A stretch of 64,000 nt of DNA from Portibacter marinus. Lineage in GTDB: Bacteria > Bacteroidota > Bacteroidia > Chitinophagales > Saprospiraceae. Positions 50,033 to 64,000 of the stretch are shown one piece after another. A program made the translations under genes and the position numbers. How positions within the stretch are numbered: the first letter of the stretch is position 1; each line of letters begins with the position of its first letter. The stretch is from the NCBI RefSeq assembly GCF_021533195.1, contig NZ_JAJNKB010000010.1:62001-126000 (forward strand). The letters run 5' to 3'. The notes under the pieces are model-generated. The model saw only the letters and a list, made by a program, of their open reading frames with translations, was not told where the DNA came from and did no database searches.

Positions 50033-51205
50033 TTGAAAAACAAGAGAAAAATAATACTGGTCTCCAATACTTCATGGAGTCTTTACAATTTCAGATTAGG
50101 GCTAATCCGTGCCTTGACCAGAAAAGGTTTTGATATAACTGTGGTAGCGCCACGAGACAGATTTACTTCTAAACTTATTTCCGAGGGTATCACTTACAGA
50201 GAAATATTCATCAAAAATTATAGTATTAATCCCATCGACGATCTGAAAATTATATTCCAATTGTCGAAAATATACAGAACTATTCGTCCTCAACTCATTT
50301 TTCATTATACAATCAAACCAAATATCTACGGGAGCATCGCGGCCTTTTGGCATCGAATTCCTTCTATATCCATTACAACAGGATTAGGTCACTTATTTGA
50401 ATTTAAGAATTTCATGATCAGGTGGATTACCGTTTTTCTTTATCGATTTGCTGCATACGTCAGCAAAGAGCTTTGGTTTTTAAATGAAAATGATCGGGAT
50501 GTTTTTGTTTATAAGCGAATCGTTCGTTCCAAAAAAGCCAGAGTTCTAAAAAGTGAAGGCATTAATACTGAATGGTTTTCACCCAAAAAGAATAAAAGCT
50601 TTCAGGGTGTACAAAGATTTCTTTTTGCCGGTCGATTAATTTGGGATAAAGGAATACGTGAGTTTGTTGAAGCAGCTAAAATAGTTAGATCCAGACATCC
50701 GAGAACGAGATTTGAAATGATAGGATTTATAGATTCTTCAAATCCTAAGGCTGTTAGCTACGATGAAATTGCAGAGTGGCAAAAGCAGAAAATAATTAGA
50801 TATCTAGGAGAAACTTCAGATATCAGGCCAGTCCTGCAAAGAGCCTCATGCTTAGTATTCCCTTCGTTTTACAGGGAGGGCATTTCAAGAATTTTAATGG
50901 AGGCCGCCGCAATGGAAACTCCAATTATTACAACCGATAATGTAGGCTGCAGAGATCTTGTAGATGATGGAGTTAATGGTTTTATTACTAAACCGAAGAG
51001 TGTAGAAGATCTAGTCCATAAAATTGAGCTGTTCTTAGCGCTTTCAGAAGAGGATAAAATTGTGATGGGTAAGCTTGGGAGAAAAAAAATGATCAGACAA
51101 TATGATGAAAGTCTTATCATCAATGAATATATGGAGGTCATTCATTCTTTTCTCCCAAACCAACCTAAATCAGAATCCCAATCTAAAAACTATAGGCTAC
51201 ATTAG
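50033..51205 (+). CDS. Glycosyltransferase family 4
   Basis: A 390-residue GT-B enzyme. ILVSNTSWSLYNFRLGLIRA, IIFHYTIKPNIYGSIAA and ISITTGLGHLFEFKN characterise a subgroup of O-antigen GT4 enzymes; the donor half has FLFAGRLIWDKGIREFVEAA, and FPSFYREGISRILMEAAAME carries the EX7E motif, followed by DNVGCRDLVDDGVNGF. TTG 50033 start. It is the last gene of the plus-strand array; its last 23 bp overlap the convergent TonB receptor gene, so there is no room for an intergenic terminator. Confidence 0.9.
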   Translation: MKNKRKIILVSNTSWSLYNFRLGLIRALTRKGFDITVVAPRDRFTSKLISEGITYREIFIKNYSINPIDDLKIIFQLSKIYRTIRPQLIFHYTIKPNIYGSIAAFWHRIPSISITTGLGHLFEFKNFMIRWITVFLYRFAAYVSKELWFLNENDRDVFVYKRIVRSKKARVLKSEGINTEWFSPKKNKSFQGVQRFLFAGRLIWDKGIREFVEAAKIVRSRHPRTRFEMIGFIDSSNPKAVSYDEIAEWQKQKIIRYLGETSDIRPVLQRASCLVFPSFYREGISRILMEAAAMETPIITTDNVGCRDLVDDGVNGFITKPKSVEDLVHKIELFLALSEEDKIVMGKLGRKKMIRQYDESLIINEYMEVIHSFLPNQPKSESQSKNYRLH

Positions 51206-53408
51206 CTCTGAAGAAAAATGGAGCACCTGGAGTAAAGTGTAATTCCTCCACAGGTACACTTTCATTTCTCAGCCTTGATTCTGTGGCAAACTGTGCTTCA
51301 TTCCATTCAGTATTAAACAGGTTTTCTATGTTAAAACCCAAAGTAACCTGACCAATCCGATAGCTCATATTCAAATCCATGACTAAATAACCTAATGCTG
51401 TTATCGAAAAGTCTTCATTTGCAGGCCTATCACTGATATATCGATATTGCAGCCCTCCTTGCAGCCCGTTAAATGATTTGTAGTTGAGCCCTCCAGTTGC
51501 CGTAAATGAGGGCGCAAGAGGAATATAATTTTCTCCTTCGGCTTCTACAGACCGAGCATGGGTATAGGTAATATCTGAATTAAAGAAAACTTCATCCACA
51601 ATCTGGTATCTCATGCCAAATTCAATGCCTCTACGATTGGTTCTACCACTTGGCTCCACGATCCCTGCATCTCCTACGTATACAAATTCTTGTTCCAAAA
51701 ATAAATACCAGAGAGCTGTATTGATCCAAAGTCTTTTTATCGGTTTCCATGTAGTCCCCAAGTCGATCCCGTAGGCTGGAGGTAGTATTTCCAAACCATC
51801 TTTAACAACAACAGCTCTAGTATCATTCGAGTGAAAACCTATTCCAGATTTCAGGTACAATTGAAGCGTAGGTCCAGGATTATAGATCACATTTAATTTA
51901 GGAGAAACTATTGCATTAGAGGCTTTTTCAGAGCTATATGCCGTACTGAGACGGTCTACATAATGACTATTAAAATAATCAAATCGAAGTCCTGGATTAA
52001 TCATAAATGGTCCAAAGTCAAATTCCGCATTGGCAAAGGAATAAAAGTTGGTTTCATTTACATCTCCGAAAGCGACCCTCTCCCTCAATGTCTTCCTATT
52101 TATCGTCCACGATAATTCGTTATCATCTATATCATCATGTCTAACTCCCACCCCAAAATTGAGTTCAATGTCACCAAAACTATTGTCAATGGTCTGAAAA
52201 AGACTGGATTCTAATCCATATATTTCTCTATCCTCATGTTGTCTGATTTGATCTCCGTTAACAGGGTCCTCCAGAAAAAATGTAAAGTTGGAAAACAGTT
52301 CAAAATCATACTTGACATAGTATGACTTGGTTTTTACGAAACTGTTCATGCCAATAATTTTCGTATAATCCAATAAAACGTTGGTTCTCGCAGTATTCCC
52401 CCCTTCGGTATCGTCTACTGCTCCAAATCTTGATATCGTTCCGTTTTCAACCAGTCTTTGCGGAATTTGTCCAGAGGCATCCCATTTACTTTGGAACCGA
52501 CTGAAAAGTAAAGAAAGCCTGTTTCCTGAATTGAAAGTTTGATTGTATTTCGCCATCACATTTAACCGGGAAAAATTCTGAGGACTTTCAAACGGACCAT
52601 CACTCAACAAATACTCAGAGGCGACATAAGCGTTCTTGTTTTTCTCTGAACCTAAAATATCGAACAATCCGAAAAATCTCGATGTGTTGAATTGACCATA
52701 CTCTACACCAACTTTACTTTCATCGATCTTATCCTTTGTTTTGAAAGCTACGTAACCAGCAGTATTAAAATTACCTTGATCAGCATAATATGGACCTTTT
52801 CCAAAATCAATTTGGTCAATGGTTTCAGGAATTACAAAATGCAGATCTGCATATCCCTGACCATGTGCATGTGACACCATATTTACAGGCATACCATCTA
52901 CTGATAACGTAATATCAGTTCCATGATCGATATCAAAGCCCCTCAAAAAAATCTGCTCTGCTTTTCCTCCACCTGCATGTTGGCCAATAAATAATCCTGG
53001 AACCTTTCTCAAAATTTCCTGAGAAGAACTAACTGGGTCAACGCTAAGGTCTATATTTGCTACCTGGTAAGGTGTTTTAACTGAATTAGATATATAAACC
53101 TGATCGAGCTCGAAATATTTAGGCTTCATCTTGATTTCTACTTCTCGCTCAAAATCCTCATCCGTGACGATGTGCTTAGCAGTGGCAAAACCTAAGTAGC
53201 TGAAATGAACTGTGTCTCCTACTTCTGCACCTTTTAAAATAAAATTTCCTGAAATATCAGAATGACTATGAATATTTTTTTCTGAAGTGAAAATGTAAGC
53301 TTCTACAATTGGTTCTCCAGATACTGAATAAATACTTCCTGTAATATCTTGACTTATAACATTTAAAGAAATCACAGAAAGTATTACAAAAAGAATTGAT
53401 TTTCTCAT
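51183..53408 (-). CDS. TonB-dependent outer-membrane receptor
   Basis: A 741-residue receptor with a signal peptide (MRKSILFVILSVISLNVISQ), a carboxypeptidase-regulatory-like domain at about residues 20-85, a plug domain around 110-225 (EILRKVPGLFIGQHAGGGKA, LRGFDIDHGTDITLSVDGMP) and a beta-barrel ending in NVAYSF. The plug contains a His-rich NMVSHAHGQGYADLHF motif. No SusD partner is present, so glycan uptake is less likely; with the His-rich small protein 31 bp upstream, a metal or metal-chelate substrate is a reasonable inference. It runs opposite to the glycan operon and overlaps its last gene. Confidence 0.9.
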   Translation of the reverse strand: MRKSILFVILSVISLNVISQDITGSIYSVSGEPIVEAYIFTSEKNIHSHSDISGNFILKGAEVGDTVHFSYLGFATAKHIVTDEDFEREVEIKMKPKYFELDQVYISNSVKTPYQVANIDLSVDPVSSSQEILRKVPGLFIGQHAGGGKAEQIFLRGFDIDHGTDITLSVDGMPVNMVSHAHGQGYADLHFVIPETIDQIDFGKGPYYADQGNFNTAGYVAFKTKDKIDESKVGVEYGQFNTSRFFGLFDILGSEKNKNAYVASEYLLSDGPFESPQNFSRLNVMAKYNQTFNSGNRLSLLFSRFQSKWDASGQIPQRLVENGTISRFGAVDDTEGGNTARTNVLLDYTKIIGMNSFVKTKSYYVKYDFELFSNFTFFLEDPVNGDQIRQHEDREIYGLESSLFQTIDNSFGDIELNFGVGVRHDDIDDNELSWTINRKTLRERVAFGDVNETNFYSFANAEFDFGPFMINPGLRFDYFNSHYVDRLSTAYSSEKASNAIVSPKLNVIYNPGPTLQLYLKSGIGFHSNDTRAVVVKDGLEILPPAYGIDLGTTWKPIKRLWINTALWYLFLEQEFVYVGDAGIVEPSGRTNRRGIEFGMRYQIVDEVFFNSDITYTHARSVEAEGENYIPLAPSFTATGGLNYKSFNGLQGGLQYRYISDRPANEDFSITALGYLVMDLNMSYRIGQVTLGFNIENLFNTEWNEAQFATESRLRNESVPVEELHFTPGAPFFFRANVAYSF

Positions 53409-53988: not shown

Positions 53989-56151
53989 ATGTCGAAAGCT
54001 GTATTCTTATTTCCGATAATTATTCTCTGCTCTCAGTTACACTCACAAAACATTTTCGATACCCATCGATCAGTCAAGATGTACGCTGAAGTAGTGGCTG
54101 ATACAGCTTTGCAAATTAATTGGATACATGATCCTGAAGGATTTCGATATGAACTTTACAGAAAAACGTTGGATGATCAATCGTGGGGAGAACCTTTGAT
54201 GGTGAGCGACGGTAGTGAAACCTCTTATTTAGACCAGCTTGTGCCTATTAACCAAATTATAGAATACAGAGTCATAAAATTTGTTGACACGTTAGTGGGA
54301 TATGGATATCTATACTCTGGTATTGAATATCCAATTTCGCCATCCATTAGTCCTGTCTTGCTTGTGATCGAAGAAAAAACAATGGCAAATATTAGTGATG
54401 TGATCCGTGGATTTGTAGACGCTCTTGAAGCAGATGGATTTTATACAGAATCGATAGTAGTTAAAAATAGCGCCTCTGCCATAGCAGTTAAGGAGTCTAT
54501 TTTAGAAACCGCTAAATCAATGTCAAAAATTCATTCCATCATTCTATTAGGTGATGTGCCTGTTCCACACTCAGGTAATATAAATCCCGATGCTCACACT
54601 GATCATAAAGGTGCATGGCCAGCTGATTTGTACTACGGAGATTTGGATGGTATGTGGACCGACACGTTGGTAAGTAATACCAGCTCTGAAAATGATAGAA
54701 ACCATAATGTTCCAGGTGACGGTCGATTTGATCAGTCCTACATTCCGAGTGACATAGAAATAGCTGTTGGACGCATAGACTTTTCTGAATTGGATGTATT
54801 TGAAAAAAATGAATATGAACTCCTTGAAGACTACATACTCAAAAATATCAAATACAGGAAAGGTGAATATCAGCCTAGAAGGAAAGCAATAGTAAAAAAC
54901 ACAAACCCATGGAATGGTGGACTTGGTCAAAACGGCATTAGAAATTTTAGTGCTCTGGTATCACTCGATAGTATTGTTTATCAGGAATGGAATGATGCGT
55001 TTACAAATTCTTATCTCTGGTATTATGGTGGCGCAAGTGGCTCTTATACGAGCGGCACAGGTCTGGGAAACAGTTCCACTTATGCAGAAAAGGACTTTTT
55101 GGTGACCTTTACTGGTTTTTTTGGATCCTATTTCGGAGATTATGATTACCCAAATAATTTCCTGCGATCAATATTAGCCTCTGGTGACGTACTTGCAACC
55201 AACTATACTGGTGCTCCAAATTGGCATTTCCATCCAATGGCTATGGGATTTCCTCTAGGTTATATTACCAGGCTTTCTCAAAACAACTCATCTATCTATG
55301 AAGCTGGTTATTTTCCAAGGTCCATACACAGCAACCTTCTTGGTGACCCTACCTTGAAATCATTTGTTTCTGTTCCTCCTCGCAATTTAGAATATTCTCA
55401 AGATGGGGGTATAATCAGTATAAATTGGGAACCTCCTTTCAATGAAGATGTATTGGGTTACTTCATATATAGAAAGGGCGATTATGAAAAAAAATACACC
55501 CTCATAAATGATCATCCCATTTCCTCAAACAGTTTTATGGATTCATGTGTATACTTAGACGATTTAAATGTCTCCTATCTAATAAGAAGTGTAGATCTTG
55601 TTACATCTCCCAGCGGGACTTTTCGAAATCTAAGCAGTGGAGCCCATATTTTTATCGATACCGTCCAACCCTATAATGTAAAAGCCGATTTTTCCTATAC
55701 TTTGAACGACAACATTTTACACCTTATTAATTCATCACAAAACGCTGATCAAATTACATGGACACTACCAGACGGAAGCACCTCGACACAAGATGAAATC
55801 TTTATTCCTTATGATTCTTCTATGGAATTTGAGGTCACATTGGAAGCTTCGAATTTATGTCATGCTAATACAAAAACTGAAAAAATTGTTCTTTCTAGTT
55901 CAGATGAAATTGATAGAAAAGATACTGCCTTTTTGTATCCAAATCCTGTCCAAAAGGGTGGCACAATAACAACAATTGAATACTTCAAGGAATATCAATT
56001 AGAAAGTTCATCGGGGAATCTTGTAGATCAAAAAGTGTTCGAAACGCCAAATAATCAGATCATTTTAAATAATCAGATATCAGCGGGCACCTATATTTTG
56101 ACAATTGTTACAAAAAAAGGCGCTCAAAAATATACGCTAATCATCCTATAA
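53989..56151 (+). CDS. Secreted C25-like protein with T9SS sorting tail
   Basis: A 720-residue exported protein: signal peptide MSKAVFLFPIIILCSQLHSQ, an FN3-like domain (~25-115), then a gingipain/C25-like region (~120-460) recognisable from VLLVIEE, SIILLGDVPVPHSGN, PSDIEIAVGRIDFSELD and the closing NLLGDPTLKSF, a further FN3-like domain, a PKD-like segment and a Por-type C-terminal sorting domain (FLYPNPVQKGG to the end, residues 648-720). Where C25 peptidases carry their catalytic Cys the sequence reads FTGFFGSYFGDYD with Ser380, and the GHG position reads YYGGASGS, so it may be an inactive homologue. T9SS would place it on the cell surface. It converges with the FkbM gene, overlapping 6 bp. 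Confidence 0.82.
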   Translation: MSKAVFLFPIIILCSQLHSQNIFDTHRSVKMYAEVVADTALQINWIHDPEGFRYELYRKTLDDQSWGEPLMVSDGSETSYLDQLVPINQIIEYRVIKFVDTLVGYGYLYSGIEYPISPSISPVLLVIEEKTMANISDVIRGFVDALEADGFYTESIVVKNSASAIAVKESILETAKSMSKIHSIILLGDVPVPHSGNINPDAHTDHKGAWPADLYYGDLDGMWTDTLVSNTSSENDRNHNVPGDGRFDQSYIPSDIEIAVGRIDFSELDVFEKNEYELLEDYILKNIKYRKGEYQPRRKAIVKNTNPWNGGLGQNGIRNFSALVSLDSIVYQEWNDAFTNSYLWYYGGASGSYTSGTGLGNSSTYAEKDFLVTFTGFFGSYFGDYDYPNNFLRSILASGDVLATNYTGAPNWHFHPMAMGFPLGYITRLSQNNSSIYEAGYFPRSIHSNLLGDPTLKSFVSVPPRNLEYSQDGGIISINWEPPFNEDVLGYFIYRKGDYEKKYTLINDHPISSNSFMDSCVYLDDLNVSYLIRSVDLVTSPSGTFRNLSSGAHIFIDTVQPYNVKADFSYTLNDNILHLINSSQNADQITWTLPDGSTSTQDEIFIPYDSSMEFEVTLEASNLCHANTKTEKIVLSSSDEIDRKDTAFLYPNPVQKGGTITTIEYFKEYQLESSSGNLVDQKVFETPNNQIILNNQISAGTYILTIVTKKGAQKYTLIIL

Positions 56152-56829
56152 TATTTTCCAATTCTCCCATAGAAAAGGAAATTGATAGGTCGTGTAATGA
56201 GTCTTTTGTAGTTGACTTTGAATCTCGTACATTCTTTTTTTCGCATTAGGCATAAAGTGATGAAATTGGACCTGTATTTGTTTAATTTTATTAATTAATC
56301 CAGAGCTGATCAAATATTCTAAGAGTTCATACTCCCCTCCTTCGATATTGATTTTCATCAAATCAACCTCATCTATTTTTCTTTGATCTATAAACTCAGA
56401 GATGCCCTTTAAGTTTGCAATTATGGATTTATTTCCACATTTATAAACGGAGGTAGAATCTTTGTCTATCCCTAAAGAAATCTGCTGATCCTTCGGTGCC
56501 AAACCAAAACAGTAAACTTCTATATCTGGGTTTAATTCAAATCTTTCTTTAATCTGATTACAAAAGCTGGGATTGGGCTCGAAAACAAGCATTTTGCATC
56601 TATATCTACTATATATATCACTTGCCCATTGACCTTCGTAACCTCCCAAATCCAATACCAGGCTATTCTTACCAAGATCAGGGTAGGTGTAACGATAATT
56701 TCTGGACTTATTTTCTTCTTTCCATTTTCTCAATATCTCCGTCCATTCTTTATCCTGGCGCTGCATAGCTTTACCAAGTTTCATTACTCTCTTACCAGAG
56801 GCAACCAGAACTCTACTTAAAAGTTTCAT
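56146..56829 (-). CDS. FkbM-family methyltransferase
   Basis: A 227-residue SAM-dependent O-methyltransferase of the FkbM type: SLVLDLGGYEGQWASDIYSR (motif I), MLVFEPNPSFCNQIKERF (strand-2 acid), and DLMKINIEGGEYELLEYLI, the family's K-N/D-IEG motif. FkbM enzymes methylate hydroxyls in macrolides, glycans and glycolipids. It is the last gene of the minus-strand NRPS/glycosylation cluster and overlaps the sulfotransferase-like gene by 4 bp. It probably tailors the cluster's product. Confidence 0.88.
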   Translation of the reverse strand: MKLLSRVLVASGKRVMKLGKAMQRQDKEWTEILRKWKEENKSRNYRYTYPDLGKNSLVLDLGGYEGQWASDIYSRYRCKMLVFEPNPSFCNQIKERFELNPDIEVYCFGLAPKDQQISLGIDKDSTSVYKCGNKSIIANLKGISEFIDQRKIDEVDLMKINIEGGEYELLEYLISSGLINKIKQIQVQFHHFMPNAKKRMYEIQSQLQKTHYTTYQFPFLWENWKIL

Positions 56830-57557
56830 TTCTTTCGTCTATGTAAATATTGCTTAAATTTTCTAGCCAGCTCAATTTTAGAAATTAGATAGTGAAACAA
56901 AGTTCTTCTATAAATTTTATATCGAAATGGGAAGTAATGCGTTTGTTTCTCCAAAATTAAGGGTTTTGGAATGGCCTTTTGTTGCTCAATAAATGCTTCG
57001 TAGGATTGACAAAGCAAGTGAACAGTTTTAGTAGTGGTATCCTCCAATTTAGACTTCCTTTCTCTTAAAGGAGGAAAGTCACTGATGAAATCGTTGGGGA
57101 CTTGTAAGAAATTTTGGATAACTTCTAAATTTTCAAACAGCGTTTCGTATGAAAGAAAAAGTGATTGGTGTGCTTGAAATCTGGAAAACCAATTGGTAAA
57201 GTGATCTTGCAAATGAAGGATATCTCTCTTTTTTTGGGCATATTCCTCAATGGTCATGTCTATATCCAAAACCGGATTGTCAGGAATGTATTTTCTGAGA
57301 AGCAAGCTTTGGGTAGTTTGATACTTTCTCCTAAAAAGAGATAAGGTTGCTACCACTGGATCACCATAAATGTAAATCACTTTAAGATCAGGACAATTTA
57401 GGGGCGGCAAAAACATATGTTTGTATCCATCCGTATTATCTGGACAATTACATACGAGCCACTTTGAAAGTTCTTTTATCAATAAGGTTGTGCCTACCCC
57501 ACCTGAAGATACAATCAGGCAATCTAAATGTTTTCGTATGTATAGTGGGTTTTTCAA
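56826..57557 (-). CDS. Sulfotransferase-like protein (third of three, divergent)
   Basis: A 243-residue protein with a P-loop-like start LIVSSGGVGTTLLIKELSKW corresponding to the phosphosulfate loop, and VIYIYGDPVVATLSLFRRKY where the 3'-phosphate motif RxPxxRxxS would lie, then LSYETLFENLEVIQNFL, which is usual for sulfotransferases. The 3'-phosphate motif is degenerate (GDP in place of RNP), so activity needs caution. It abuts the fucosyltransferase gene directly. Its place suggests sulfation of the fucosylated or peptide product. Confidence 0.65.
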   Translation of the reverse strand: MKNPLYIRKHLDCLIVSSGGVGTTLLIKELSKWLVCNCPDNTDGYKHMFLPPLNCPDLKVIYIYGDPVVATLSLFRRKYQTTQSLLLRKYIPDNPVLDIDMTIEEYAQKKRDILHLQDHFTNWFSRFQAHQSLFLSYETLFENLEVIQNFLQVPNDFISDFPPLRERKSKLEDTTTKTVHLLCQSYEAFIEQQKAIPKPLILEKQTHYFPFRYKIYRRTLFHYLISKIELARKFKQYLHRRKK

Positions 57558-58436
57558 TTATAAGCGTATCCAGTCTTTATGTACTAAATCATCTGTGATG
57601 ATAGAATCATCTGTAAACCACTTTTTAGGCGCTACAACTATTTTATTGGAATAATTGCTCAGATACGCTGCCCAATAAGCAAATGAGCTGTTTGGTATAA
57701 TAAAGTGCTTACATGATTTCATTAAGTTTAAATAATTTTCAAACTTTTTTCCTTTATGCGAGTGATCGACAATGGTATTTTTATCTAAAAATCCAAAATT
57801 CTCTCGACACCAATTGATATCATCCGAAAAGATAAAAAAGCTTGGTGAATCGACATTTTCCTGCATAAATTTTACTCCTTTCTTAAAGTAGGATAAATCT
57901 GTAGCATTTAAAACTTCGTTTTTTAAAAAATCTGTTCTTCTTACGTTGAGACAAATTGAATTACTATCAATAATATCATGGTAAAGTTTCGTCGAATGGT
58001 CAATGACCTTCTCTCTGAACGTAAAGTCTGCTCTTAAATCATCCTCTATTGCATCAAAATAGCGGTGACTTTGCCACCAACCATCATACAATACCTCATC
58101 TCTCGGGTTTTCATAAAGTTCCTGATCAAAATGAAAGAATCGTTCTTTGAAAAAAGTATTTTGCCATTGAACGTATTTCATGATCAGGCCTGAAATTCTA
58201 GCATTTTTAATTCCATGAAGTGAAGAAATGATGTTTCTGTTTATATCAAATTGTGGTTCTAGTCTAAATACATCCAGATCATAATTTCTATAGACAAATC
58301 CTTTCTGCTTTCTTCTGTTCAATAGTGAACTTAGATCATACTTCACGTCAGTAGACAGTTTTTTGGCCATTGCTTGACCGAAGGCATATTGAAACATCTG
58401 ATTCCCTAAACCACCTTTGAGCCTGACTTTAATCAT
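57558..58436 (-). CDS. Alpha-1,2-fucosyltransferase (GT11)
   Basis: A 292-residue GT11 enzyme. The N-terminal KVRLKGGLGNQMFQYAFGQA is the family hallmark; SICLNVRRTDFLKNEV carries the conserved Arg-Arg-x-Asp (HxRRxD-type) donor site, followed by FFIFSDDINWCRENF and FIIPNSSFAYWAAYLSNY. It transfers fucose from GDP-fucose to a hydroxyl. ATGA overlap with the GT1-like gene upstream indicates coupled translation. GDP-fucose synthesis genes are not in the window, but the ManC-like gene gives its precursor. Confidence 0.93.
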   Translation of the reverse strand: MIKVRLKGGLGNQMFQYAFGQAMAKKLSTDVKYDLSSLLNRRKQKGFVYRNYDLDVFRLEPQFDINRNIISSLHGIKNARISGLIMKYVQWQNTFFKERFFHFDQELYENPRDEVLYDGWWQSHRYFDAIEDDLRADFTFREKVIDHSTKLYHDIIDSNSICLNVRRTDFLKNEVLNATDLSYFKKGVKFMQENVDSPSFFIFSDDINWCRENFGFLDKNTIVDHSHKGKKFENYLNLMKSCKHFIIPNSSFAYWAAYLSNYSNKIVVAPKKWFTDDSIITDDLVHKDWIRL

Positions 58437-59785
58437 ATTGTTTCAGTGATATAATGGAGTTCTAATTGATCAATCAACTTGGTTAAAGATTGTTTTTGCT
58501 TTTGAAGTAAATACTCTTTCTGAAATTTTAAAACATTATTTTGAAAGTTCTCGTCGCTGAGTAATTTGCGAATTTTCTTTTTGATTTGATCATCACTTTC
58601 GGTATTGCGATCACCTCGCAATCCTACCTGGTGATACTGTATACGCGCAGCGCATCCATTTTGATCGGAACGACCTCCTGAATAAACCAACATTGGTACT
58701 CCAAAATGAATGCATTCATTGATGGTGTGAATTCCCCCATGATTTATCGAGATATCAGCATATCGGAGGGCTTTGATTTGAGGTAAAAAGTTGAATACAA
58801 ATACATTTTGGGGCAAGCTTGCCCTTAATTTATAGTCCAGATTACTAATGCCTATAAATAGTGACCATTCAGGCTGTGATCTGAAAATAGAAACTAGTTT
58901 GTTGAAGAATGCGGTATTCTCCGAATTTAATGTACTAAATGTGCCAACTATGATTTTCTGACCTTTTGCTTTTTGATCTTCTATTAATGTTATGAAATTC
59001 TTCTCGAAAATTTGTTCTTTTCTCTCTTCAAATACCATGGGGCCAATATAGAAGAGATTGGGCCTTTTCTCATGAGGAAACTCAAGGCCTTCTAGGGTCA
59101 TGGAAAAAACTGGTAATTGGTCGTAGTGGAAAATACCTGGCCAGAAATCCAACTCAATGAATTTTCTTGGAAAACCCATATTTCTGGCCATTCGTTTCAA
59201 TACTGTCCTTCGATCCGTCCCAAAAGATAACCATTTCTTCATCCAGTTCATTTTTCTTCTTTCCTCAGCAAGATTATCCCATTCCTTCTCGATGGCGTCA
59301 AGATTCTCCTTATTCGGAATAGTAGAAGTCAATAGGTAAGGTAAGCCTTTAGATCTCCAGATGGAAAACCACTGAGATAATAAAATCACTCTTTGTTTTA
59401 GTGCATAAGCTGAAATAATAAACTCATGGAGTTCAATATCGATTATAATAGCATCAAAATTATGCCTACTTATATATTCAATAAACTTATCGGGATAGAC
59501 CGCAATGTAGGCGTCTCTTCTTCTTTTACGAAAAAATAGAATGCTAAAAAGCAAGGTTCCTATTTTTCCCATTTTTTGGAAGGCCGGGGACGTTTTGGGA
59601 ACTGTATTAACTTTTATCTCTGGAAATTTAACAAATTCAAATCCATTCAACTCATAGAAATTGCTTTTGTCTCTGACAGCTCCTGCAACAATAGTATTTC
59701 CTTCATTCTGCAACCTTTTGCAAAGTTCTAGACTAGCATTGCTTATCCCAGTTAAACCGGAAGTGATACATAAAATGTGAGCCAT
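58433..59785 (-). CDS. GT1-like glycosyltransferase (MGT/UGT type)
   Basis: A 450-residue GT-B enzyme of the UGT/macrolide-glycosyltransferase type: ILCITSGLTGISNASLELCK at the N-terminus, an FYIGPMVFEERKEQIFEK hinge, KIIVGTFSTLNSENTAF, VFVFNFLPQIKALRYADISI and the PSPG-like donor motif NHGGIHTINECIHFGVPMLV followed by DQNGCAARI. This class usually glycosylates small natural products rather than polymer repeats, which fits the adjacent NRPS gene 2 bp upstream. Aglycone and donor are unknown. Confidence 0.87.
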   Translation of the reverse strand: MAHILCITSGLTGISNASLELCKRLQNEGNTIVAGAVRDKSNFYELNGFEFVKFPEIKVNTVPKTSPAFQKMGKIGTLLFSILFFRKRRRDAYIAVYPDKFIEYISRHNFDAIIIDIELHEFIISAYALKQRVILLSQWFSIWRSKGLPYLLTSTIPNKENLDAIEKEWDNLAEERRKMNWMKKWLSFGTDRRTVLKRMARNMGFPRKFIELDFWPGIFHYDQLPVFSMTLEGLEFPHEKRPNLFYIGPMVFEERKEQIFEKNFITLIEDQKAKGQKIIVGTFSTLNSENTAFFNKLVSIFRSQPEWSLFIGISNLDYKLRASLPQNVFVFNFLPQIKALRYADISINHGGIHTINECIHFGVPMLVYSGGRSDQNGCAARIQYHQVGLRGDRNTESDDQIKKKIRKLLSDENFQNNVLKFQKEYLLQKQKQSLTKLIDQLELHYITETI

Positions 59786-59787
59786 AA

Positions 59788-62700
59788 TTATTCTGCGAGC
59801 AATTTCATTAATGTATTTTCAATATACTTTGAAAATCTGTAGATTGTATGCTCTCTTAAAATACTGACTACTGGTAGCTCTAGGTCTAATGTTGAGTTTA
59901 CCTTGACAACTGTTTTAATTCCAGTCAGGGAATCACCTCCCAGACTGTAAAATGAATCATGTAAACCTATTTTATTTTGATTTAAAACATCACACCAGAT
60001 ATCATGGACAATCATCTCTATTTCAGTGGTAGGTGGCTCTACCTGTAATTCTGGTTTCTTCACTTTGTTCTTCGTGATGAGCACGAGCTGCTTTCTATCT
60101 ATTTTACCACTTAGGTTAAGTGGCATATCTTCCTCGAAAACGACATATGAAGGAACCATGTAATGAGGAAGCCTTGCTTGCAGATAATTCAGAATTTCTT
60201 TTTCTGATAAGTTTTCTGATGCAACAATGACAGCTGATAAATACTTGATGTCATCATCATTAATAAGAACAACTGCGGCCTTTTCTATTTTAGGGACACT
60301 TAACAAAACATTTTCTATTTCCCCAAGTTCCACACGATTACCTCTCAATTTCACTTGAGAGTCACTCCTTCCCGAATATATAATATTGCCATCGCTTAAC
60401 CAGTAGCCCTCATCTCCAGTGTTATAAAATTTATGACCATTGAATTCTTTTAAAGTAACAAAGCTTTTATCGGTAAGCGAGCTATTTTTATAGTACCCTT
60501 CAGCTAATTGTGCTCCACCAATAAATATGTTTCCTTTTTCACCAATTGGCGCTTGTTGCAAATCAGAATTCAAAATTCGAATCTGAGTATTATAAACCGG
60601 CTTGCCTATAGGGATGCTGGTTGAAAATTGCTTTCCAGGGTAAACCTGTAATGCAGTAACGTCAATTGCGGCCTCAGTGGGGCCATATAGGTTATGAAGT
60701 GTGCAATAAGGCAAAAGTGATTTGAATTTTTCTACATGTTCAGGCTTCAGTGCTTCACCAGAACAAACGACTTGTCTTAAAGTAGGACATGCACCTTCTT
60801 TCAACGTCAGTAAAAAAACCTCTAACATAGAAGGCACAAAGTGAATTATTGTAACACCAAATTTTTCAATGAGATCAATAAGATAAGAGCTGTCCATTTG
60901 GCCATTTGGCTTTGCCAGCAACAAGGGGACACCTGTCATTAGTGGTAAGAAAAGTTCCCATACAGAAACATCAAAACCGATACTTGTTTTATGTAAGATC
61001 AGATCTTTTTCCGGATTTAGTTGATGATAGTCTCTTGCCCAATAAAGTCTATTCATGACCGCAGCCATTCTGTTCATAACTCCCTTGGGACTCCCCGTAG
61101 AGCCTGAAGTATATATGATGTAGAATAAATTCCCTGCATTCGACTTATTGATAGTTGCACTATCTTCACTTTCAGATAAAACTTGACTGACGGACAGTGT
61201 ATTAACCTCTGCATCCATTGAGGAAATGATATTTTCATTGACAAAAATGCCAGACAAATCAGACTCCCGGTAAATTTGATTTATTCTCTGTAGAGGTAAA
61301 TTCGTATCTAATGGGACATATGCAGCGCCACTTTTAACAGTGCCAAGAAGTGTGATGATCAATTCAAAGGAACGATCTAAACAAACTCCTATTCTACCAC
61401 CCTGTTCAGGGCATATTTGCCTGGAAATAAAATGAGCTATCTGATTAGATTGCAAATCTAAATCTCTATAAGTGTATTTCTTTCCTTCAAAGATTATTGC
61501 TGTTTTGTGAGGATGATCATTGACCAGCGTTTCAAATTCGTCAATGATACTTTTAGTAGTCGCTAACTCTTTTGTAGTTCTATTAAATTCATCAACCAAC
61601 TTAAGATCTTCAATTGAGATACTACTTATTTTTGCAGCTCCCTCAGAATCTAATATGTTTTTTAGCAGGGTGTTGAAGGCGTGGATAAACATCAAACGGT
61701 GTGACTCATCAAAAATTTGTTCTGAAAAGTCAATGGTGATTTTTGGAACTGTTTCATCATTGAAATTATATACTTGTATTTTGACCGCATGACCTGGATC
61801 ACAAAAGCCACTATCCAACCATTCAGATTTCATAGAAATCGTTTCACTATGATAAAACTTAGTGGTTATAAAATTGAAGACCGAATTAAATTTTTTAAGT
61901 AATTCCACTGAGCTTGCGTCATGTATACTATTCTTTAGAATATCATTTGATTCGATTTTACATTTATTAAAGACCTCTGAAAAACTGTCTTTTTCTTGTA
62001 ATTCAACTTTTAAAGGAAATATTTTTAAAAACGGTCCTACCGTATTCTTTTGTTTTATGTCCGTTCTACCATGAAAAGGCGTACCTACGACAGGGATATT
62101 TGTTCCTGTAAATCTTCCAACTAAAATATGAGTGATGCTAAGAAAGAAAATGTAAAGTGACTGTTCGTAGGTCCAAGATTTAAAATCATCATGCTCTAAA
62201 AGTCTTTTTATTTCGTCAACTTGTTCAATGGTGAGATTAATGTGTACTCTATGCGTTTTGTTGATGAAATCCTTAAAAATTCTGCCAAAAAAAGGGTTAG
62301 GTAAAGGCAATTTCTCCAGCTTCTGTTTCCATAAACCAGGTGGGTTTGAATTCTTATTTTCTGTGCGATTTAAATACTCCTTGAACTCAAATAGTTTGGG
62401 TTCATCATCACTTCCCTTAAGTAACTCCTCATATCTTTCACAAACATTCTTTTGGAGTAAGGCAAAGGACCAACCATCAGTGATTAGATGATGTATTTTA
62501 AAATACCAAATTTTAGATTTTGAATCACTTTGTAAAATAGCAGTTTTATATAAAGACTTCTTGGGATCAAATGGACGTCTGGTTTCGTCAATCATCCATG
62601 CCTCTGGGTCTACCAGGCTTTCTTGTATCTCCACATCAGGCAATTGATCGGAGAAATACGCTTGCTCTACATTGTGAAACCTCATATTTAGGACATCACA

Positions 62701-62859
62701 GTTCCTTATTGTATTAAACAAAGCTTCTGTGAATGTATCAATGTCTACATGCTCATCCAGATAAAATGCAAAGGCCATGTTGGAATGTGGAGACTCCAGG
62801 TTCAATTGATGACCTGCCCATATGAGTTGTTGGGTATTTGATGGTTTGTAAGCGTCCAA
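59788..62859 (-). CDS. Nonribosomal peptide synthetase module (C-A-PCP), serine-like code
   Basis: A 1023-residue single module. Condensation domain (~1-440) with HHLITDG at 123-129; adenylation domain (~450-920) with YTSGSTGSPKGV, NLYGPTEAAID, YNTGDEGYW, and SGKIDRK near the end; carrier domain (~940-1015) with LGGDSLTG, Ser977 for phosphopantetheine. No thioesterase, epimerase or reductase domain follows. Reading specificity positions against the GrsA template gives D-V-W-H-V-S-L-I-D-K, very close to the serine code DVWHLSLIDK, so L-serine is the best guess. It sits between a stand-alone ACP and a GT1-like gene; the C domain probably accepts an acyl or aminoacyl chain from that ACP. Confidence 0.93.
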   Translation of the reverse strand: MDAYKPSNTQQLIWAGHQLNLESPHSNMAFAFYLDEHVDIDTFTEALFNTIRNCDVLNMRFHNVEQAYFSDQLPDVEIQESLVDPEAWMIDETRRPFDPKKSLYKTAILQSDSKSKIWYFKIHHLITDGWSFALLQKNVCERYEELLKGSDDEPKLFEFKEYLNRTENKNSNPPGLWKQKLEKLPLPNPFFGRIFKDFINKTHRVHINLTIEQVDEIKRLLEHDDFKSWTYEQSLYIFFLSITHILVGRFTGTNIPVVGTPFHGRTDIKQKNTVGPFLKIFPLKVELQEKDSFSEVFNKCKIESNDILKNSIHDASSVELLKKFNSVFNFITTKFYHSETISMKSEWLDSGFCDPGHAVKIQVYNFNDETVPKITIDFSEQIFDESHRLMFIHAFNTLLKNILDSEGAAKISSISIEDLKLVDEFNRTTKELATTKSIIDEFETLVNDHPHKTAIIFEGKKYTYRDLDLQSNQIAHFISRQICPEQGGRIGVCLDRSFELIITLLGTVKSGAAYVPLDTNLPLQRINQIYRESDLSGIFVNENIISSMDAEVNTLSVSQVLSESEDSATINKSNAGNLFYIIYTSGSTGSPKGVMNRMAAVMNRLYWARDYHQLNPEKDLILHKTSIGFDVSVWELFLPLMTGVPLLLAKPNGQMDSSYLIDLIEKFGVTIIHFVPSMLEVFLLTLKEGACPTLRQVVCSGEALKPEHVEKFKSLLPYCTLHNLYGPTEAAIDVTALQVYPGKQFSTSIPIGKPVYNTQIRILNSDLQQAPIGEKGNIFIGGAQLAEGYYKNSSLTDKSFVTLKEFNGHKFYNTGDEGYWLSDGNIIYSGRSDSQVKLRGNRVELGEIENVLLSVPKIEKAAVVLINDDDIKYLSAVIVASENLSEKEILNYLQARLPHYMVPSYVVFEEDMPLNLSGKIDRKQLVLITKNKVKKPELQVEPPTTEIEMIVHDIWCDVLNQNKIGLHDSFYSLGGDSLTGIKTVVKVNSTLDLELPVVSILREHTIYRFSKYIENTLMKLLAE

Positions 62860-62865
62860 AATATT

Positions 62866-63102
62866 TTACTTGTTTCTCAATATGTAATCCTCAATTGCTC
62901 TTACCGTTCTGAAATTTTCGATAGTCATATCTTGTGGAGTCACATTGACTTGATAATGCTCTTCCACAAAATTGATGAGCTGCATCATCCCCATAGATTC
63001 GATAAAACCAGTGCTTAGCAAATCGTCTTCTTCTTCTATCGTTACACCCTGAATACCTCCCAGTAATGTCTCTTGTATAAAATCTATTATTTCTTTTTTC
63101 AT
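62866..63102 (-). CDS. Stand-alone acyl/peptidyl carrier protein
   Basis: A 78-residue carrier protein. DLLSTGFIESMGMMQLINFV has the phosphopantetheine Ser (Ser36) in the G-F-I-E-S-M context typical of DltC-like and free-standing carriers. Four-helix pattern and acidic surface fit. It overlaps the upstream adenylation gene by 4 bp and ends 6 bp before the NRPS gene, so it likely receives the residue activated by that free-standing A domain and passes it to the condensation domain. The alternative overlapping frame at 62891-63130 is not coding. Confidence 0.9.
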   Translation of the reverse strand: MKKEIIDFIQETLLGGIQGVTIEEEDDLLSTGFIESMGMMQLINFVEEHYQVNVTPQDMTIENFRTVRAIEDYILRNK

Positions 63103-64000
63103 TCAGGCAGTTTAAGATCTTTGCGATCAATTTTACCAGTTGCTGTTCTTGGGAAATCTTTTACGATATAAAACTCTTGTGGAATGGAGTATAACGGAAT
63201 CATTTTCCTTAATTCACTAACAATCATGTTTGTTTCAATAGCTTTATTCTGATAGGTTTTAATCAATGCTATTAAGCGTATTTCATCTTCTTCGTGTAAA
63301 AAGCACACGCTTTCTTCTATGTCTTTAATTTGATTAATGGCACTTTCTAAATCACCAATTTCAATTCTATAACCTCTGTATTTGATCTGGTGATCTTTCC
63401 GACCTTTGAAGTGAAGTATTCCCTTTTTATCTTCAAAAACCAGATCACCAGTCTTGTAATATTTCTTAACATAACCACCCTCCATTTGTTCTAAGTACAT
63501 AGATCTATTTGTTAATTCTGGTTTGTTCCAATAACCAGCCATTAGTGTAGAGCTCCGGATGAGTAGTTCACCTACTTCGCCGCTTTCACAGACTTGATCC
63601 ATTTCATTCAAGATTTTGTATTCTGTGTTTTTCCACACCATGCCTATTGGAATTGGGCTTTTTCCAGAAGGAATCTCATTCAAATTGTAGTAGGTGCATT
63701 GGTTGGTTTCAGTTGGTCCATATATGTTACTAACTTTTACGTTTTTAAAATACAACATCCACTTTCTAAGCTTTTGGGGGTTAAATGGTTCTCCTGCATA
63801 TAACAACCATCTCAATTTTTTGAATTTCATTTCAAAAAACTTTTCATATGACATCATCTGAATAATAGCTAGCGGCACAGAATACCAGATGGTCACAGCT
63901 TCTTTTTCAATAAGTTCTGTTAAAAGCTGTGGAAATATAACTTCTGCATCTGTAGCAATGATGGTTGTGGCTGCCATATAAACAGCGGTAAAATAACCTA
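63099..64000 (-). CDS. Free-standing AMP-binding/adenylation domain (N-terminus outside window)
   Basis: The visible ~300 residues are the C-terminal part of an amino-acid adenylation enzyme (DltA-like organisation): KLRWLLYAGEPFNPQKL, SNIYGPTETNQCTYY, YYKTGDLVFEDKKG, KGRKDHQIKYRGYRIEIGDL and the A10 lysine motif TATGKIDRKDL. The frame stays open to the right edge, so the Met at 63977 is internal. The readable specificity positions (Tyr, Leu, Ala, Ile, Gln, Cys by alignment) match no code I know; the first three lie outside the window. It should load the ACP encoded just after it. Confidence 0.9.
   Translation of the reverse strand, partial: GYFTAVYMAATTIIATDAEVIFPQLLTELIEKEAVTIWYSVPLAIIQMMSYEKFFEMKFKKLRWLLYAGEPFNPQKLRKWMLYFKNVKVSNIYGPTETNQCTYYNLNEIPSGKSPIPIGMVWKNTEYKILNEMDQVCESGEVGELLIRSSTLMAGYWNKPELTNRSMYLEQMEGGYVKKYYKTGDLVFEDKKGILHFKGRKDHQIKYRGYRIEIGDLESAINQIKDIEESVCFLHEEDEIRLIALIKTYQNKAIETNMIVSELRKMIPLYSIPQEFYIVKDFPRTATGKIDRKDLKLPE

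Follow-up and report, generated by a model that had tools for sequence, protein, structure and literature searches.

A 64,000-nucleotide stretch of the Portibacter marinus genome (contig NZ_JAJNKB010000010.1, positions 62,001 to 126,000; hereafter the window) ends inside a nonribosomal peptide synthetase (NRPS) gene cluster, which we read, with a probability of about 0.6, as the locus of a nonribosomal, sugar-decorated metallophore for copper (or nickel) together with its export and re-import system. The product is quite likely a metallophore, copper is then the metal that we favour with somewhat less assurance, and the peptide core of the window's cluster is quite probably pyrrolyl-Ser-His. 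Support from the sequences lies in the gene set, the domain order, the specificity codes of the adenylation (A) domains, their conservation, the orthology of a TonB-dependent receptor and an invariant histidine in a HupE permease, the fold of whose periplasmic domain was predicted in a relative.

Assembly of the predicted pyrrolyl-X-His core

Seven tightly packed minus-strand genes at 56146-64000, described in the original prediction from the window alone, were confirmed, with adjacent genes overlapping or lying a few bases apart. The Pfam matches agreed with the domain calls made there, which placed glycosyltransferases, one of them of GT11 type, and a sulfotransferase-like protein next to the NRPS genes. 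The 64000 edge truncates the A-enzyme gene, whose true end is at 64643, and the whole cluster. Extension to the right, towards the cluster boundary (region L002, in which a coordinate is the window coordinate minus 56000), yielded both a release domain and an exporter: beyond a dehydrogenase gene, an arm encoding an ATP-binding cassette (ABC) exporter, a HupE/UreJ_2 permease, a second NRPS (NRPS2) and a phosphopantetheinyl transferase (PPTase) runs divergently from the minus-strand operon (Table 1). The module of condensation (C), A and peptidyl carrier protein (PCP) domains in the window, here NRPS1, lacks a thioesterase (TE), as had been proposed, but this does not extend to the cluster, since NRPS2, at about 68925-74405, carries one.

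The free-standing A domain, previously seen as a general activator of an acyl or aminoacyl group, reads instead as a proline-to-pyrrole starter because a dehydrogenase and a carrier protein lie alongside it. In a PDB search the dehydrogenase was closest to the prolyl-acyl carrier protein dehydrogenase 4irn (AnaB; 360 bits), followed by 6cxt, named a butyryl-CoA dehydrogenase (284 bits), and by the L-prolyl-PCP dehydrogenases 5zw0 and 6af6 (265 and 263 bits), with the remaining matches at 229 bits or less. Its best NCBIfam scores were with PigA (366 bits, cut-off 500) and RedW (323 bits, cut-off 650), and in the window's genome the PigA model gave 366 bits with the cluster dehydrogenase as against 255 and 236 bits with two others. 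The A enzyme is probably proline-specific, as judged from its code, DILYLAIQC, which is near the PltF code DLLYLALVC; the codes of the starter enzymes fitted D..Y....C in 64 of 75 relatives (last column by a fallback rule).

The codes were read at motif-located positions, in GrsA numbering, and carried over by profile. The counts cover the window and loci L045-L124, the best 80 of 128 relatives from a species-level scan with one genome per species; they leave out the overlapping L025-L044 and any row in which two or more positions were missing. NRPS1 of the window carries DVWHVSLID, in agreement with the serine previously predicted in the core, and position 2 of NRPS1 reads as Asn in 40, Ser in 13 (window included) and another residue in eight of 61 cases. 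The pattern DS.L.AEVW was found in 53 of the 56 readable A domains labelled NRPS2. The other three read as position-2 domains, one of them (L090) where the contig ends and two in the planctomycete loci L100 and L114, where a single protein carries another code and then DSALIAEVW. The order from position 2 to His is supported by these two fused proteins, which hold both codes in sequence, and by the thioesterase, which NRPS1 lacks and NRPS2 has. An A-domain survey, with 14 His domains among 2051 domains, gives DSALIAEVWK for His (PMC12283262), and the last activating module of the relatives bears the His code wherever it was readable. Thus, of the acyl- or aminoacyl-serine core first proposed, the serine is retained, but the core continues to histidine and has its own release domain. 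Across the pathway family we predict a pyrrolyl-X-His core in which X varies; since position 2 varies and the starter and His are kept, the conserved part is what an amino-terminal Cu(II)- and Ni(II)-binding (ATCUN) motif needs.

In the NRPS2 thioesterase, Cys1658 lies within GTCFS at the usual place of Ser, and the same motif occurs in NRPS2 of L031, L033, L037, L039 and L044, the five relatives whose TE the pattern caught. NRPS2 of this cluster further contains an additional C-PCP unit that lacks an A domain and might bring in a fourth residue. A weakly methyltransferase-like protein (about 268 amino acids; below cut-offs) was noted beside or between split NRPS2 pieces in 16 loci (e.g., L109:1914-2714).

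Receptor, HupE domain and proposed mechanism

The receptor gene at 51186-53408, which the original prediction had not linked to the cluster, lies 2.7 kb to its left and is assigned to it by orthology with the cluster receptors of relatives, which are located inside the cluster or at its edge. The cluster receptor of L040 showed 57% identity (900 bits) to that of the window, and the next receptor in the window's genome gave 40 bits. Small His-rich proteins (about 150-200 amino acids) are encoded at most 400 bases from the TonB receptor gene in 23 of the 80 loci (within L062-L123; e.g., L106:17136-17612), and one member tested had no Pfam match. Homology of this family to the 136-residue His-rich protein of the window was not established (profile E 0.015, sequence 1.2 bits).

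The window genome contains three HupE_UreJ_2 genes in 5.19 Mb. Among the HupE proteins of the window and 63 of the 80 loci (copies of at most 380 amino acids excluded), His23 of the window protein was invariant (64 of 64) and followed a signal-peptide-like stretch with cleavage judged by eye; the preceding residue was Ala in 53, Ser in eight, Gly in two and Pro in one. Among the 43 periplasmic domains compared from relatives, no column but that of this His was invariant. A PDB sequence search with the profile of the domain gave no useful match. When the L068 domain was modelled with AlphaFold2 (predicted local distance difference test, pLDDT, 94.4), the Cu-bound anglerase Ang-1 (9GCE) ranked first (Foldseek E 5.9e-7; Z 12.1, 140 aligned residues, root-mean-square deviation, rmsd, 3.6). 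The dissociation constants reported for the Ang-1 domain are 74 nM for Cu2+ and 220 nM for Ni2+ (PMC12537917).

From these features we infer the product structure, the metal, the direction of transport, the glycosylation site and the signal-peptide cleavage as follows. The A enzyme would load proline onto the stand-alone carrier protein, and the dehydrogenase would oxidise it there to pyrrole-2-carboxyl, or at least to pyrroline. NRPS1 would add serine and then NRPS2 histidine, the A-less C-PCP may add a further residue, and the Cys-containing thioesterase would release the peptide, which the glycosyltransferases, sulfotransferase and methyltransferase could decorate, perhaps from the serine hydroxyl. 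ATCUN peptides, of the type X-X-His with a free N-terminal donor, coordinate Cu(II) and Ni(II) with the terminal nitrogen, two amide nitrogens and the imidazole nitrogen. In the predicted product the pyrrole nitrogen would stand in for the terminal amine, and with two amide nitrogens and the His imidazole would form a 5-5-6 square-planar N4 set. The ABC protein would export the metallophore, the TonB receptor would take up the metal-loaded complex, and the N-terminal-His periplasmic domain of HupE/UreJ_2 would accept the metal, Cu(II) being more likely than Ni(II). The presence of an exporter, an importer and a permease along with a predicted His in the third place suggests a ligand that is secreted and recovered.

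Distribution and branches of the cluster

A relative of the dehydrogenase was found in 26 of 248 Saprospiraceae genomes at E 1e-80, the window's included, and two other genomes of the genus gave no such match at this threshold. The comparison covered 20 of the 25 other Saprospiraceae regions, and these showed much the same gene set, with gaps at contig ends. The usual order there is TonB, often an ornithine-cyclodeaminase (OCD)-like gene, dehydrogenase, sulfotransferase (7 of 20), A, PCP, NRPS1 and often GT1, with a divergent arm of ABC (not in all), HupE, NRPS2 and PPTase. Comparison of the gene order with other Bacteroidota showed that much the same core set recurs, also beyond this phylum: about one quarter of the 80 titles are non-Bacteroidota, covering cyanobacteria, planctomycetes, and acidobacterial, proteobacterial and other metagenome-assembled genomes (MAGs), whose titles can be wrong.

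Gene labels in the 80 loci are best BLAST matches at 1e-5, in which A and NRPS can swap, and the fetched flanks end about 10 kb from the match or at contig ends, with genes farther out unseen. On this basis, and with the numbers for the 50 loci of at least 20 kb in parentheses, the loci contained A in 77 (49), PCP in 71 (49), NRPS1 in 68 (47), HupE in 65 (48), NRPS2 in 61 (49), TonB in 53 (33, with only 28% identity in L124), OCD-like in 50 (34), GT1 in 20 (15), PPTase in 20 (19) and ABC in 18 (6). Several of the 80 loci lie on the same contigs as Saprospiraceae regions fetched earlier, and distant variants may be missed by search patterns taken from Saprospiraceae copies. In a sample of the phylum, dehydrogenase matches occurred in 64 of 395 genomes at E 1e-90; only three exceeded 600 bits (that of the window's genome, G462 and G446), and another three, one in G277 and two in G497, scored 360-442 bits. 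The remaining matches (338 bits or less) were taken as other acyl-CoA dehydrogenases, and the 64 therefore do not represent the prevalence of the cluster. Two further observations concern the dehydrogenase gene: it occurs without the other core genes on a 20.7-kb contig of a Saprospiraceae MAG (L102), and near it a conserved protein of about 545 amino acids is encoded in 14 loci (e.g., L070:7992-9632), one of which was tested and had no Pfam match.

In a midpoint-rooted FastTree phylogeny of the dehydrogenase, the window falls among 12 tips (local support 0.997), the other 11 of which are titled Saprospiraceae, Lewinellaceae or Neolewinella. Three members of this group, L052, L056 and L064, combine the Ser code with GT1 and GT11, and they are the only three of the 80 loci with GT11 relatives (49-53% identity). 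The GT11 domain itself is present in the window glycosyltransferase, and a fucosyl donor is predicted from the family. Relatives of GT1 were found in 20 of the 80 loci, including flavobacterial loci, where they lie beyond NRPS2, and one acidobacterial MAG, and the idea of glycosylation as a Saprospiraceae-only feature was dropped accordingly. For the FkbM and sulfotransferase proteins of the window, BLAST against the 80 loci gave no relative at E 1e-3. Glycosylation thus recurs, and the fucosyl-, sulfo- and methyl-tailoring looks local to the window's branch, as far as sequence comparison goes.

Asn-type NRPS1 proteins can have an AANH/PP-loop domain inserted between A and PCP (L068:15722-16717 and 35 other loci of L045-L124). 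An SGGKDS motif was detected in 36 NRPS proteins of the 80 loci, all of which read Asn, and in none of the 13 Ser proteins. The insert has 332 residues with seven invariant Cys (24 aligned sequences), and the first structural match of its model (pLDDT 87.5) was the N-acetyl sugar amidotransferase 8wex (302 residues aligned, Z 20.6, rmsd 4.3, E 1.5e-11), with NAD-synthetase-, nitrile-synthetase-, LarE- and TtuA-type enzymes next at Z 12-14. A precedent is CtaC, an AANH protein that makes thioamides on a carrier-bound peptide (PMC6772006). Given this resemblance and precedent, it is a fair guess that in the Asn branch, and not in the window, a chelator amide would be converted to an amidine or thioamide. 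We propose only tentatively that all these loci form a multi-phylum class of copper metallophores, in which a pyrrole-X-His mimic of ATCUN would deliver Cu(II), by way of a TonB receptor, to a HupE permease with an N-terminal His, the Asn branch would add the AANH-dependent amidine or thioamide, and the window would represent a glycosylated Ser branch.

Genes of surface-polysaccharide type flank the cluster on both outer sides, as judged by eye with few of them run through a library. By eye and from the open reading frame list, window positions 1-51000 hold a large plus-strand locus of this type with sulfotransferase-like, NeuB/NeuC-like and heparinase-like proteins. Within the cluster, the sulfotransferase-like and GT11 proteins had no NCBIfam match, and the ABC exporter frame is open from L002 9893, its first Met being only at L002 10025.

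Table 1. Features of the cluster and its receptor region in window coordinates, with L002 coordinates in parentheses.
Feature	Position	Strand	Basis and remarks
TonB-dependent outer-membrane receptor	51186-53408	-	Plug + CarbopepD_reg_2 domains; predicted importer of metal-loaded product
Small His-rich membrane-type protein, 136 aa	53440-53850	-	Adjoins receptor gene
Weakly C25-peptidase-like protein, tail of type IX secretion system (T9SS) type	53989-56151		Between receptor and operon; both matches below cut-offs
FkbM methyltransferase	56146-56829	-	Methyltransf_21 1.4e-12; TIGR01444 56.7 bits, above cut-off 37.7; putative tailoring
Sulfotransferase-like protein	56826-57557	-	Sulfotransfer_1 4.1e-6, weak, residues 49-145 only; putative tailoring
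GT11 (fucosyltransferase-type) glycosyltransferase	57558-58436	-	Glyco_transf_11 7.9e-29, full length
GT1-like natural-product glycosyltransferase	58433-59785	-	EryCIII-like_C 5.9e-10; UDPGT 2.6e-8; NCBIfam MGT 66.6 bits, under cut-off 260
NRPS1, C-A-PCP, predicted Ser	59788-62859	-	Pfam domains; code DVWHVSLID
Carrier protein for prolyl/pyrrolyl (predicted)	62866-63102	-	PP-binding 3e-6
Stand-alone A enzyme, 514 aa, probably proline	63099-64643 (window part ends 64000)	-	AMP-binding 1.7e-83; code DILYLAIQC
Acyl-CoA dehydrogenase, prolyl-carrier type, 378 aa	64653-65789 (L002 8653-9789)	-	NCBIfam and PDB matches
ABC exporter	65893-67683 (L002 9893-11683)	+	Pfam
HupE/UreJ_2 permease	67695-68912 (L002 11695-12912)	+	HupE_UreJ_2 3.2e-47
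NRPS2, 1826 aa, C-A-PCP-C-PCP-TE	68925-74405 (L002 12925-18405)	+	Code DSALIAEVW; TE motif GTCFS
PPTase	74412-75104 (L002 18412-19104)	+	ACPS 2.2e-17

Alternative readings and relation to known systems

Several observations weigh against a copper metallophore with a pyrrole starter. The dehydrogenase stays under both the PigA and the RedW equivalog cut-offs, and in a control on 14 well-known genomes the PigA model picked up ordinary dehydrogenases in 6 (1e-60), all of them under the cut-off. Oxidation could stop at pyrroline, as in the two-electron reaction of AnaB, and a pyrrole nitrogen must lose its proton to bind metal. No prolyl enzyme tops the PDB matches of the A enzyme: linear gramicidin synthase leads with 385 bits in two stretches, other NRPS A domains follow, and the L-proline--carrier ligase 6o6e has 227 bits; 11 of the 75 starter codes deviate, six of them as DP.FLSIQC. 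On the transport side, ABC relatives lie near only 18 of the 80 loci, being uncommon outside Saprospiraceae-type loci. The window receptor had no solved-structure match at 1e-10 in a PDB sequence search and reached 96.9 bits with its best NCBIfam model, TonB-siderophor, under the cut-off of 223.5. A copper-receptor model for TonB proteins was also considered and rejected, being absent from the matches listed for the window receptor and giving 34.5 bits with that of L040 (cut-off 472).

To the same side belongs the distribution of the receptor: no TonB gene was found in the fetched stretch of 17 of the 50 loci of at least 20 kb, 13 of these 17 being titled outside Bacteroidota. A TonB profile run on the non-Bacteroidota fetched stretches added nothing beyond the BLAST matches, and a plug-domain search of ten such genomes, in which not every contig could be placed, located no receptor at the cluster. 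The L101 genome had two plug-domain matches, which within the limits of the mapping did not fall close to the cluster. Finally, no copper regulator was found, and 43 intergenic regions contained no convincing shared regulatory site of the Fur, Zur or copper type; AT-rich words were prominent in them, the 8-mer AAAATTGC occurring in 10 of 43 as against 1.1 in mononucleotide shuffles.

The choice of metal is where a competing explanation survives best. A metallophore whose metal is not copper but iron, zinc, nickel or cobalt, which for nickel overlaps our own reading, is somewhat unlikely but has to be weighed. Nickel permeation is the older assignment of HupE, and ATCUN peptides bind Ni(II) too. 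HupE/UreJ proteins have been reported to confer Ni import (PMC11247825), and N-terminal-His HupE proteins have been found elsewhere too (PMC12537917). In addition, the next-best folds of the HupE domain were zinc-binding ZrgA (Z 9.7) and PA4063 (Z 8.8), so that the fold alone leaves the metal unfixed, and the best model of the receptor, under its cut-off, is a siderophore family. Copper is nevertheless favoured by the first-ranked fold match, the Cu-bound Ang-1, which prefers Cu2+, and no catechol, hydroxamate or hydroxy-acid enzyme was among the Pfam and NCBIfam matches of the window's cluster.

Known antibiotics and pigments are built on pyrrole starters, the models closest to the GT1-like enzyme are of macrolide type (cut-offs not reached), and the cluster is accessory, with no match in two other genomes of the genus; its product might thus be a pyrrole glycopeptide antibiotic or signal, for which the ABC exporter and the metal genes would be resistance functions or by-standers. 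We regard this as unlikely, since the TonB receptor and HupE that accompany the core in many genera are better explained by uptake than by killing, and a His code in every readable last module fits a ligand. The original prediction had allowed for an aminoacyl or peptidyl decoration of a surface glycan or glycolipid. The location between polysaccharide genes, the MsbA/PglK-like ABC protein (below NCBIfam cut-offs), the recurrence of GT1 and the Wza-type genes directly after GT1 in the Saprospiraceae regions L026, L027, L028 and L031, with Wzz in three, are in keeping with it. This role was demoted after the gene counts and is now judged improbable, because, within the fetched flanks of about 10 kb or up to contig ends, Wza lies near 4 of the 80 loci and HupE near 65. 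A chance neighbourhood of unrelated genes, to which the C25-like gene between receptor and operon could point, is hardly tenable in view of the core set shared across phyla.

A copper metallophore of this kind would combine parts known from several systems. The pyrrole starters PltF/PltL/PltE, PigI/PigG/PigA and RedM/RedO/RedW likewise place an A enzyme, a carrier and a prolyl-carrier-type dehydrogenase side by side, but here the starter is joined to a Ser/Asn-His NRPS line and the dehydrogenase scores below the PigA and RedW cut-offs. The loci of nonribosomal metallophores also group an NRPS with an exporter and a TonB receptor; the cluster is nevertheless kept out of the described chelator classes because none of the usual chelator enzymes was among its Pfam and NCBIfam matches. 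With ATCUN peptides the predicted product would share the X-X-His donors and the third-place His, but it would be NRPS-made, with a pyrrole instead of the terminal amine. Methanobactin and chalkophomycin are copper chelators, the latter with an N-hydroxypyrrole; unlike the product predicted here, methanobactin is a ribosomally synthesised and post-translationally modified peptide and chalkophomycin a hybrid NRPS-polyketide synthase product with a diazeniumdiolate. The anglerase-HupE protein Ang-1 (9GCE) has the same signal peptide, N-terminal-His domain, HupE/UreJ-2 membrane part and, by way of the L068 model, fold. Anglerases were reported for Pseudomonadota (Ang-1) and Actinomycetota (Ang-2) in a paper whose main text does not mention siderophores or NRPS (PMC12537917), whereas HupE here is located in NRPS clusters, mostly of Bacteroidota.

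That no described pathway is known to have such a gene set, as previously noted, agrees with the open-licence text of PubMed Central (PMC), where no description of the cluster or of a pyrrole-X-His metallophore was found. The main text of a 2026 genome-mining paper on peptide metallophores contains neither pyrrole, HupE, copper or nickel nor any word in Bacteroid- (PMC12971057), and metallophore searches that start from known chelating groups would be expected to overlook this cluster. Bacterial copper acquisition is poorly known outside a few models, and the cluster brings together a receptor, a permease and a predicted chemistry open to test, in organisms that include the named carriers Neolewinella persica DSM 23188, Algibacter luteus, Hyunsoonleella jejuensis and Leptolyngbya PCC 7375. 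If the reading is true, it would provide a physiological setting for the recently described anglerase-HupE proteins.

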